A stretch of DNA of 32,396 bases from Bdellovibrionales bacterium (GTDB lineage: Bacteria > Bdellovibrionota > Bdellovibrionia > Bdellovibrionales > UBA1609). The DNA lies in assembly GCA_022450595.1 (NCBI GenBank), contig JAKUPT010000032.1, forward strand, positions 1-32,396, given 5' to 3'. Each line of letters begins with the position of its first letter. Position 1 is the stretch's first letter. The position numbers were made by a program, and so were the translations under genes. This document shows, piece after piece, positions 2,451 through 21,786 of this stretch. Under the pieces are notes generated by a model that saw only the letters and a program-made list of their open reading frames with translations, was not told the DNA's origin and did not search any database.

Positions 2451-3277
2451 TTAAGATAGCAATCTCATTGCCACCGCTTTATCGTTATTGGCTTGAGCCA
2501 ATACCGCCGCACCAAACTCTTGCAAAAGCTGTCCTTTAGTTAAATTAGTGACAGACTCCGCAATGTCTGCATCGGCTATTAAGGACCTGGCTTCGGTAAT
2601 ATTCTCTTTTTGAATTTCCAAATTGTTCACAGCATACTGAAACCGACTTTGAGCGGCCCCGAACATGGATCGCGCCTCAAGAACTTTAGATAAAGCTCCA
2701 TCAATGGACTTAATAGAGTCCAAAGCATCATCTTTCTCCATGACATTTAAGTCCTCAATCTCGGTCTCATAGGCTGTTGTGTTGGCATTGAGATCAAATT
2801 TAATAATGTTTTCTTCTCCATTAAAAGGCCCCACATGAAACTCAAACTGCTCATTAGAGCCTGTTAATAGCTGCTTATCACCGTATCTAGAGACTTTAGC
2901 AATACGGTCAAACTCACTAATAAGTTGTGAGAACTCTTTATTCAGATAGCCTCGCTCATTTTCGCCCACAGTATCACTTGCGGACTGAACGGCGAGCTCT
3001 CTCATTCTGATAAGAATGTTGTTTTGCTCATTCAAACTCCCCTCGGCTGTCTGAATTAAAGCCACGCAGAGTTGGCGTTATGTTTTGCTTGCTCCACACC
3101 ACTGAGTTGGCCGCGAAGCCTTTCAGCAATGGCAAATCCTGCTGCATCGTCGCCTGGATTTGAGACACGAGAGCCAGAAGCTAATGCTCTGAGCGCTTTA
3201 TGGGTCATTTTTTGCGAATTACCTAGATGCCTTTGTGCAGACAAAGAGGCGATATTCGAATTGATTCGAAAAGACAT
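2451..3277 (-). pseudogene. fliC: Flagellin 1, broken by a single-base frameshift
   Basis: The N-terminal part (3056-3277, starting MSFRINSNIASLSAQRHLG) and the C-terminal part (2451 to about 3065, with LIQTAEGSLNEQNNILIRMREL and ending AVAMRLLS) are the two ends of one flagellin in different frames. The first frame reads through NANSA and stops at TAA (3056-3058); the second resumes with ALIQTAEG. Adding one base near 3065-3068 restores NANSA-x-ALIQTAEG and gives exactly 275 residues, the length of the intact flagellin at 4751. There is no homopolymer or slippery heptamer at the site. Both D0/D1 ends are otherwise intact, so the lesion is recent or a sequencing error. The start ATG has a strong AAAGGAGG Shine-Dalgarno. 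Confidence 0.85.
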
Positions 3278-3388: not shown

Positions 3389-3458
3389 GTGTTTTTTTAT
3401 ATTATGCGTCAAGTTTATGAAAAGACTGCCGAATTATATAATAACAGGACCTTTGTCT

Positions 3459-3803
3459 ATGAAGCTATCTCGAATCGAACCAATGCAAACCCATGAGCCA
3501 GATGAGCAAAAAGAAGAAGCTCTGGCCGTGGCTGACATTGAAAATCAATCTAAGTCCGTCACTGGAGTCAGTGAAAACCAGACGGATCTGGGGGACGTAC
3601 TTAGTGAGGAAACCAAAGGCGGCCTTAAAAGGTTGGCTGAGTTCTTAAACGCCAAATCCAAGCAGAAACAAGAGGATGAAGAGCGGAATCCAACTGGGAA
3701 GTCTCCGTCCCTTAAATTAAGAGCTATTAAGTCTTACCAAGCTATTGATATGTTTGAACTTTCTCAAAATCAAAAAGCGACAAAAATAAAAAAATCGGCC
3801 TGA
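3459..3803 (+). CDS. Small unknown protein divergent from flagellin 1
   Basis: A protein of 114 residues (128 if the upstream in-frame ATG at 3417 is used). I do not recognise it. It has no signal peptide or membrane segment. The N-terminal half is acidic and polar (EPDEQKEEALAVADIENQ), the middle has a short helical segment (GGLKRLAEFLNAKSKQKQ) and the C-terminus is basic (KIKKSA). I prefer the ATG at 3459 because AGGA lies about 10 bases upstream; the ATG at 3417 has no ribosome site. It shares its upstream region with flagellin 1 and lies inside the segment bounded by the 20-bp direct repeats. Function unknown. Confidence 0.5.
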   Translation: MKLSRIEPMQTHEPDEQKEEALAVADIENQSKSVTGVSENQTDLGDVLSEETKGGLKRLAEFLNAKSKQKQEDEERNPTGKSPSLKLRAIKSYQAIDMFELSQNQKATKIKKSA

Positions 3804-3821
3804 ATAATTTTAAGTTAACCC

Positions 3822-3969
3822 GAATTTTATGCGAGGATTTGTGCCAAATTTCTCCCGGCATGGAACGGGTGCGCAGCGTCTTCGTATTGCGTTAACAAGT
3901 TAACGCAACACGGATACGCAGCGCTCGTACATGAGGTCGAAATTTGGCACAAATCCTCGCATAAAATTC
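3822..3969 (-). repeat. Hairpin element A1 (family A core, perfect 31-bp arms)
   Basis: The left arm 3822-3852 and right arm 3939-3969 are perfect reverse complements over 31 bases. The 86-base centre is GC-rich and itself an imperfect inverted repeat, with an inner stem GTTAAC-aa-GTTAAC. Read on the minus strand the centre starts GACCTCATGTACGAGCGCTG and ends GCGCACCCGTTCCATGCCGG. It is about 94 percent identical to the centre of A2 outside the inner loop, but the arms of A1 and A2 share no sequence. There is no T tract, so it is not a simple terminator. Confidence 0.9.
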
Positions 3970-4018
3970 TAGTTCACTTACTGAGGTAATTATTCTCCCA
4001 CTCCAAACCACCAATATA

Positions 4019-4072
4019 TATAGAGAGAAATAGAAAGAAAGAGTTAGAGATAGATAGAGAAAGAAAGAATTA
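4019..4072 (+). repeat. Purine-rich low-complexity tract
   Basis: An irregular AGAGAGAAATAGAAAGAAAG-type run of A and G with few T, lying between the A1 and A2 hairpins. It shows no reading frame worth calling. It could be a spacer or a site of unusual DNA structure. Confidence 0.5.
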
Positions 4073-4131
4073 AAAAGTACAAACAACCCCATCATGAGTT
4101 AAATGAGCTTTCTTTTAATGACAAAGCACCA

Positions 4132-4300
4132 GCACAGGTGGGTGAGATTCAGAAAATGGGGTGAAAATCGACCTCGTGTACGAGCGCTGCGTATCCGTGT
4201 TGCGTTAATCCCAACGGGATTAATGCAATACGAAGACTCTGCGCACCCGTTCCACTCCGGGAGATTTTCACCCCATTTTCTGAATCTCACCCACCTGTGC
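4132..4300 (+). repeat. Hairpin element A2 (family A core, perfect 38-bp arms)
   Basis: The left arm 4132-4169 and right arm 4263-4300 are perfect reverse complements over 38 bases. The 93-base centre starts GACCTCGTGTACGAGCGCTG and ends CCACTCCGGGA, matching the centre of A1 in opposite orientation. The inner loop differs from A1 but is again palindromic (TTAATCCC-aac-GGGATTAA). Apparent reading frames on both strands here are mirror translations of the palindrome and are not genes. Confidence 0.9.
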
Positions 4301-4490
4301 GGGTTCACAAACTCCCCCGAAAACCCTTTGCTGCATTGTGTTACAGCTAATTTCGACAATTTTTTTTAAATTTTTTATTGAGTAATTTCATGCACTAGAC
4401 GCGTTGCGTTTTAAAAACCTAGACCTAAGCCCTAAAGTAAACTGGACCTTGGCCGAGTAGTTACTTGAACATGTTGGATCACCTCTGAAG

Positions 4491-4696: not shown

Positions 4697-4750
4697 GAGT
4701 TTGTGTGTCTGAGCTGGAACATAAGCAGAGTAGTTTTAAAGGGGGCTAAA

Positions 4751-5578
4751 ATGGGCTTACAAATAAATACAAATCTTGCGTCGCTGAACGCACAAAGACA
4801 GTTGTCTAAAAACCAGAACCGACTTGAGCATGCGCAGGCCGCACTCGCATCTGGTAAAAGAATCGTAAACGCTGCAGATGATGCTGCCGGGCTTGCGATC
4901 TCCGAAAACATTCGAGGTCAAACAGTTGGTATTAGACAAGCGCGAAACAACGCCAACAACGCCACATCACTGATTCAAATTAGTGAAGGTGGACTGAATG
5001 AAATTAACAATATTTTAATTCGTCTACGTGAACTTGGTGTGCAGGCCGCATCAGATACTGTGAGTGATACTGAACGAGAATTCTTAAACCAAGAAGCCTC
5101 GCAGTTGATTGAAGAGTCCGAAAGGATTGCACAGTCCACACGTTTTGGTAACAAAGAGTTACTTAATGGTAGTGGTGAAGAGCTTGAGTATCATGTGGGT
5201 CCTTTTGCCGGTGAAGAGAACGTCATTCGATATAAAATCGAAGCCGATGCCACAACTAATAATTTAGGAATTGATGGTGTGGATATTTCATCAAAGGATG
5301 GAGCTCGAGACACACTCAGCGCTGTGGATGAGGCCATACAAACTCTTGGTTCAATGCGTGCCGACTTCGGTGCGGTTCAATCAAGACTGCAAGTGACAGT
5401 GAGTAACTTAGATATTCAATACGAAAACTTATCAGCTGCAAAATCTAGAATTGCTGATGCAGACATTGCCCACGAAACGGCAGAGCTTGCTTCCGCATCA
5501 ATCTTACAAAACGCCGCAGTTGGTGTGCTCGCCAATGCCAACCAAAACGGTAATGCAGCACTAAGACTTATAGGTTAG
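4751..5578 (+). CDS. fliC: Flagellin 2 (filament subunit)
   Basis: An intact 275-residue flagellin. The N-terminal D0/D1 region starts MGLQINTNLASLNAQRQLSK and includes ASGKRIVNAADDAAGLAISE, NNANNATSLIQISEGGLNEI and RLRELGVQAASDT. The C-terminal part has AVQSRLQVTVSNL, then IADADIAHETAELASASILQ and the terminal ANQNGNAALRLIG. The variable centre is short, as in other minimal flagellins. The ATG at 4751 follows AAAGGGGG; an in-frame ATG at 4703 would add residues foreign to the family. It would be secreted by the flagellar type III apparatus and polymerised into the filament. It is the only intact flagellin in the window, its neighbour on the other strand being frameshifted. Confidence 0.95.
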   Translation: MGLQINTNLASLNAQRQLSKNQNRLEHAQAALASGKRIVNAADDAAGLAISENIRGQTVGIRQARNNANNATSLIQISEGGLNEINNILIRLRELGVQAASDTVSDTEREFLNQEASQLIEESERIAQSTRFGNKELLNGSGEELEYHVGPFAGEENVIRYKIEADATTNNLGIDGVDISSKDGARDTLSAVDEAIQTLGSMRADFGAVQSRLQVTVSNLDIQYENLSAAKSRIADADIAHETAELASASILQNAAVGVLANANQNGNAALRLIG

Positions 5579-21083: not shown

Positions 21084-21219
21084 TTCTTCATTTTACTTTT
21101 AAGGATTTGACTCTTAACCTCTCAGGATGCGGCCTCCATGCCTCGCTGCTCGCGGTCCGTCCTGGACCGCAGAGGTCCTTCGAGGCTAAGAGTCAAATCC
21201 TTAAAAGCAAAATGAAGAA
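21084..21219 (-). repeat. Hairpin element B1 (family B core)
   Basis: The arms 21084-21116 and 21187-21219 are reverse complements over 33 bases with one mismatch. The centre is strongly GC-rich. On the minus strand it contains CCTCTGCGGTCCAGGACGG and GAGCAGCGAGGCATGGAGG, shared with B2. Its apex is GGTCC-AGGAC-GGACC. The arms do not resemble those of B2 beyond the outermost TTCTTC. Confidence 0.9.
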
Positions 21220-21561
21220 GATCTTACTGGGTAATGAGCTTTAAAGTTTTTAAGTGGGAGTGAATAAAAATTCTGGGTGAAAAGTATGACTGTGTAAGAT
21301 GAGAATATTTATAAACAGGTTTAGTCATAAATGAATATACGATTACAACTCCAGTTTTAGTTAAGGATATTTTATAGATATAAATATAAGTAAATAAACG
21401 TGTATTAGCATTGGTAGAGTACTGTAGCTGTGGTCATGGAAATGAAAGCATTGGCTTTAATTTTATTCTTTTAAAAAATTTCTTTTATATCTCTGACACA
21501 AAACTCTATCTCATTTTTTTATTATTAATCGAAGCAGAAAAATATCAGTCTCAGTAAGATT

Positions 21562-21692
21562 TTCTTCGAAGTGTAGTTCAAAGTTTATACAAGTCTCGAT
21601 GGGCCTCTGCGGTCCAGGATGGACCGTGAGCAGCGAGGCATGGAGCCGTGCGCGGAGAGACTTGTATAAACTTTGAACTACAATTCGAAGAA
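21562..21692 (+). repeat. Hairpin element B2 (family B core)
   Basis: The arms 21562-21597 and 21657-21692 are reverse complements over 36 bases with one mismatch. The centre on the plus strand contains CCTCTGCGGTCCAGGATGG and GAGCAGCGAGGCATGGAG, nearly identical to B1 in the opposite orientation. Its apex is GGTCC-AGGAT-GGACC. It ends about 95 bases before the transglycosylase gene. Confidence 0.9.
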
Positions 21693-21786
21693 CTCGAAGC
21701 AAACAATTCTTCTATTTTTGCCAGATCCTTTGAGAATTATGAACTTCATTTGACAATTGTGAGCAAAATCGTGGTAAAGTTTTTTT

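Follow-up and report, generated by a model that had tools for sequence, protein, structure and literature searches.

A dispersed hairpin repeat of Bdellovibrionales with a conserved core and private perfect arms that were probably rewritten by template switching

MITEs such as Correia/NEMIS, ERIC, RUP and BOX keep recognisable terminal sequences in their copies, while integron attC sites combine conserved outer R boxes with a variable centre and stand in cassette arrays. REPINs are REP doublets in inverted orientation, with conserved ends and a spacer between them (Bertels and Rainey 2011, PMC3116915). Template switching homogenises the arms of inverted repeats and inverts their spacers (Abraham and Hazkani-Covo 2021, PMC8604942), and a role in both the origin and the maintenance of RNA hairpins has been argued for it (Monttinen and Loytynoja 2022, PMC8794818). 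These earlier reports concern RNA gene stems and short inverted repeats in yeast genes.

Family A, the repeat described here, resembles REP, BIME and REPIN sequences in being a dispersed, extragenic, non-autonomous hairpin. REPINs are conserved at their ends, whereas family A is conserved in the middle and its outer arms are private to the locus; conserved REP sequences are not found at both ends of its hairpins. Bacterial MITEs are likewise small, dispersed, hairpin-forming and without coding capacity, and family A is indeed a short, non-coding, dispersed repeat with inverted ends, but its terminal sequences differ at every locus, unlike those of Correia/NEMIS, ERIC, RUP and BOX. Neither a mobilising enzyme nor a target-site duplication was identified for the family, the flanks having been read by eye for an obvious duplication. 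Integron attC sites are also imperfect palindromes with conserved unpaired bases that lie after stop codons; family A is their reverse, with variable outer arms, a conserved centre and scattered copies, and it has no outer R boxes, variable centre or cassette array. The position after stop codons would also fit an intrinsic terminator, in which a short GC stem precedes a T run downstream of a gene. By these tests family A is not a REPIN, nor is it attC-like, and an Rfam covariance-model search of the window gave no match at gathering score; the repeat is undescribed.

The window is the whole stretch of DNA that was analysed, 32,396 nt, and makes up an entire contig (C83) of a draft genome of 3.06 Mb. 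Its GC content is 39%, and the cores of its two family A elements, A1 and A2, are GC-rich. The features of this region are as follows.

3417..3803, plus strand: ORF encoding 128 aa, with no Pfam match
3811..3980, minus strand: A1, whole hairpin, family A; the GTCTTCG half comes first on the plus strand
3822..3852, plus strand: A1 left perfect arm, 31 bp
3853..3938, minus strand: A1 core, 86 nt, with the conserved internal-loop motifs GCGTCTTCG (3877-3885) and CGGATACGC (3911-3919)
3939..3969, plus strand: A1 right perfect arm, 31 bp
4128..4304, plus strand: A2, whole hairpin, family A
4132..4169, plus strand: A2 left perfect arm, 38 bp
4170..4262, plus strand: A2 core, 93 nt, with the conserved motifs GCGTATCCG (4189-4197) and CGAAGAC (4231-4237)
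4263..4300, plus strand: A2 right perfect arm, 38 bp

The limits of the whole hairpins (3811-3980 and 4128-4304) were obtained by extending the arms with mismatches allowed. The stop codon of the 128-aa ORF lies 18 nt ahead of the perfect arm of A1. The initial annotation had described A1 and A2 as a common GC-rich core in opposite orientations, enclosed by unrelated perfect arms of 31 and 38 bp. The analysis confirmed both parts of this description: the cores match in opposite orientation over 41 nt at 98% and 45 nt at 91%, and the arms of A1 are unrelated to those of A2. Both elements fold far better than dinucleotide shuffles (z = -18 for A2 and -13 for A1), with none of 200 shuffles as good. 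A low-complexity, purine-rich GA/TAGA tract (4015-4080) separates the two elements, and flagellin genes on opposite strands (2451-3065 and 4703-5578) flank them.

The genome of the window holds 11 copies of the core, each inside long near-perfect arms of its own, and pairs of elements in minus/plus order occur on contigs C83, C35 and C101. Common to the copies is the internal loop GCGTATC/GAAGACGC; the arms measure roughly 20-76 bp and the elements about 165-280 bp. A GTTAAC-like motif, seen outermost in some arms, was not kept across copies. Compensatory changes were found in 18 of the 36 pairs of the core alignment fold. A covariance-model search, already suggested from the window alone, recovered the family in 12 of the 141 genomes of the order. 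Its distribution is patchy: the carriers represent 11 of the 66 genera, in three families, and have between 1 and about 28 matches per genome. In a pattern scan of 84,980 species genomes, real copies were confined to Bdellovibrionales assemblies, including UBA1609, SJ826, SI075_bin85, HKST-UBA12 and Co_bin.56; no arms accompany the ten hits in other groups, which appear to be chance matches.

Variations on the layout were seen in two genomes. In several elements of G014 (L061, L065-L069), the inner stem of the core is also long, variable and perfect (22-33 bp), and conservation is confined to the middle segment with the internal loop. G037 contains nested double palindromes (L029:1429-1713 and L039:1422-1717), in which outer arms of 30-34 bp are followed by a short unpaired stretch and then by inner arms, as if the palindrome had grown in two steps.

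Copies are intergenic and usually lie a few tens of bases or less from a stop codon. For 80 elements both neighbours could be called with a codon-trained gene finder, and at least one gene ends towards the element in 68 of them: 25 elements lie between convergent genes, in 29 only the 3' neighbour and in 14 only the 5' neighbour ends towards the element, leaving 12 with neither. The 29 to 14 orientation bias is weak (two-sided p 0.03). A crude ORF scan had suggested that orientation strictly follows the upstream gene, but only this weak bias was left once the genes were called more accurately. The neighbours are ordinary housekeeping genes, such as those for RNase E/G, HisRS, UvrA, urocanase, a GlmU-like enzyme, an M23 peptidase, a SerA-like dehydrogenase, an ABC transporter and Mfd. 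Sites by stop codons may reflect a tolerated location rather than a function.

Variation in the arms was analysed in 29 aligned full elements with 39 outer-arm pairs. All 39 pairs showed changes on both sides, and 98.3% of cells remained paired. The covariation score of the whole structure was 0.499, against 0.161 when shuffled (0 of 500 shuffles as high), and it collapsed once the partners were slid by one column. With the caveat that cell counts over the 29 elements treat related sequences as independent, the arms showed 274 paired double changes (118 transitional, 156 transversional) and, as intermediates, 16 G-U and 14 other mismatches. The core showed 18 double transitions, no double transversions and 40 G-U cells, and its internal loops were not homogenised. 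Insertions and deletions were mirrored across both arms in L078, L086, L103, L106 and L111. Compensation point by point would be expected to leave many intermediates and no mirrored indels; the arm pattern therefore points to a copying process. Because arms and core change so differently, the arms appear to be shaped by copying and the core to be held by selection; being conserved and not homogenised, the core probably carries the function. The conservation of the core, about 90 nt, suggests that purifying selection keeps it at each site.

Several elements also extend into neighbouring genes: one of their arms overlaps the end of the coding sequence. The clearest comparison with empty sites comes from the convergent mfd and outer-membrane protein (OMP) genes, which lie -4 to 53 nt apart in ten element-free genomes, where the OMP C-terminus is conserved with a pattern like AGLKLEF. 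In G017 and G022 an element stands between the two genes; one arm holds the last ~21 nt of the OMP gene (AGFKLEM*/AGLRLEF*), and an inverted copy of this coding end lies on the mfd side. Since the OMP coding end is the older sequence, the opposite arm is the copy. Comparison with empty sites, which had been put forward as a way to see whether one arm pre-existed, thus gives a positive answer at this site. The core has opposite orientations in G017 and G022, which may reflect a spacer flipped in place or, alternatively, two independent insertions.

Taking these observations together, we propose that family A is an old, dispersed, non-autonomous hairpin repeat whose arms have probably been rewritten by template switching, with outward growth, around a conserved core. 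Because the whole unit would fold back on itself, replication would repeatedly take one arm as template for the other, and base changes or indels that arise in one arm would be copied into its partner as mirror images. The palindrome would extend outward into nearby DNA, including the ends of coding regions; the arms would need no particular sequence, and each locus would drift towards perfect arms of its own. The same copying could flip the core between the arms, and the elements themselves would spread by transposition. Replication template switching, also called quasipalindrome correction, is the likely agent as judged from the pattern of change; RecA-type gene conversion between the arms would leave the same footprint and is hard to tell apart from sequence alone. 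Two expectations of template switching are seen in family A: multi-base, transversional mirrored changes with few intermediates, and an arm that is an inverted copy of pre-existing flanking DNA on the other side, here the OMP coding end at mfd. Arm homogenisation, multi-base compensatory changes, perfect stems and, possibly, spacer inversion are shared with quasipalindrome correction as described, whereas the long arms (30-76 bp), the dozens of dispersed copies and the outward growth of arms into coding ends set family A apart. New in family A, accordingly, are its scale, this outward growth, and a conserved core that stands apart from freely mirrored arms.

Alternatively, pairing of the arms might be kept by selection on an RNA hairpin, for example in 3'-end mRNA protection or termination, with changes compensated one by one. 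The location just downstream of stop codons, with a gene ending towards 68 of 80 elements, and the strong covariation are in line with such a role, but the excess of double transversions over double transitions, the rarity of intermediates and the mirrored indels are not; selection on pairing alone, one of two origins weighed in the initial annotation, explains the many double transversions and mirrored indels poorly. The arms, at 30-76 bp, also seem much longer than an RNA would need, and they enter coding ends. In favour of RNA selection, G-U exceeds A-C among the residual mismatches on the strand that reads GCGTATC first, both in the arms (65 versus 22) and in the core (40 versus 2; core of A2). 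In 72 of 90 copies the fold of this strand is the more stable one. The bias is, however, independent of the direction of the adjacent gene, and in most tandem cases the adjacent mRNA corresponds to the other strand, not to the G-U-favoured one. We therefore consider selection on an RNA hairpin an unlikely source of the paired arms, while the G-U bias hints at some selection on the RNA or single-stranded DNA form of one strand, which may be the strand recognised in either form during spread.

As to how the elements move, they could be of REPIN type and be mobilised by a REP-associated Y1 transposase (RAYT). Family A does consist of dispersed intergenic hairpins with a conserved mismatched core, and Y1_Tnp genes are present in the genome of the window (G000), in most relatives and in most carriers. 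Against this, the conserved part is central rather than at the ends, there was no transposase among the neighbouring genes examined, and a RAYT gene is not found in every carrier: G014, which is 99% complete and has about 24 copies, gave no Y1_Tnp (PF01797) match, and neither did the carrier G002. A Y1 transposase as a requirement for family A was rejected on the basis of G014, and we regard a RAYT-driven origin as quite improbable.

Under a further alternative, the arms would be built at each insertion from the target flank, copied in inverted form, for instance through snap-back synthesis starting at the core. The inverted copy of the pre-existing OMP gene end at the mfd site agrees with such a process, as do the arms in the genome of the window, where same-strand similarity between the arms of the 11 copies is not above that of shuffled arms. 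In five other genomes (G134, G133, G014, G037 and G055), however, same-strand arm similarity exceeds that of shuffled arms, and in G134 and G133, which belong to one genus, an alignment of arms from different copies shows one common sequence, CCCAAATCTCTGGATAAATATTT..., as far as a shared boundary. Arms that are related among copies in five genomes must have travelled with the element and diverged afterwards, and for G134 and G133 flank copying at insertion is largely refuted. Beyond the common boundary, pairing is short and seen in few copies (8-10 nt, in L106 and L093). Divergence in place can be followed in an orthologous element that stands after the same gene in G134 and G133 (L088/L100): its core is conserved, while its arms differ along their length yet pair in both genomes. 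At the sites orthologous to L088 in G018 and G031 there is no element, and these sites are too diverged to see an arm. We hold the building of arms at insertion to be very unlikely.

These results bear on the initial annotation, which took unrelated perfect arms to mean that arms are made anew at each insertion or kept complementary by strong selection. It was right that the arms do not belong to the repeat as a fixed component, and inverted copying of a flank does occur, as the OMP gene end beside mfd illustrates. Arms made from scratch at each insertion are contradicted by the ancestry common to copies in five genomes and by the L088/L100 arms, which diverge in place while staying paired. 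Comparison of arms between copies bore out their private nature for 11 of 11 copies in the genome of the window and revealed related arms in the five others. The copies in the genome of the window are presumably older; their unrelated arms most likely reflect fast, mirrored divergence that has run its course. Template copying would account for what appeared to be unrelated perfect arms.

An amplification or assembly artefact (inverted chimeras) has a negligible probability: the carriers named in the pattern scan are metagenome assemblies and some contigs end inside or beside elements, but the same core and plan recur in assemblies from different projects, orthologous elements exist in two genomes, and conserved coding ends are intact.

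The plan of family A is not restricted to one core. A second family, B, is represented twice in the window.

21085..21217, plus strand: B1, family B, with perfect arms 21096-21116/21187-21207
21560..21695, minus strand: B2, family B, inverted, with arms unlike those of B1 and perfect arms 21572-21597/21657-21682

The core of family B is unrelated to that of family A, and the plan of private perfect arms is the same. About 20 copies occur in the genome of the window (L194-L213), those read having perfect arms of 20-39 bp, and none was found in 44 relatives. Reverse-complementing the outer left flank of B1 (GCTTCGAGTTCTTC) yields the outer right flank of B2. That two unrelated core families of one genome follow the same plan raises the possibility of a general process in these bacteria. 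Hairpins of a third group, having cores of the GAGTTC...GTCTGAG type and private arms, were observed in G134, G010 and G038, at the following loci.

L088:4096-4217, third-group hairpin
L086:1779-1903, third-group hairpin
L089:2471-2601, third-group hairpin
L217:1255-1435, third-group hairpin
L235:1329-1446, third-group hairpin

At the orthologous site in G133, a third-group hairpin is missing.

A more speculative reading, which we consider rather unlikely, is that these elements form a class of mobile hairpins in which the conserved core acts only through its structure and the arms are continually rewritten from host DNA. If this were true, a copy would come to hold the end of the neighbouring gene in inverted form; read-through transcription would produce an RNA antisense to this gene, and every copy would by default regulate its own locus.

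The origin of long perfect palindromes, and the reason why RNA stems stay paired through double changes, are old questions, and covariation is routinely taken as proof of RNA function. Family A offers a natural experiment in which copying at the level of DNA, not selection on RNA, appears to make the covariation, and it thereby counsels caution in the covariation-based discovery of non-coding RNAs.
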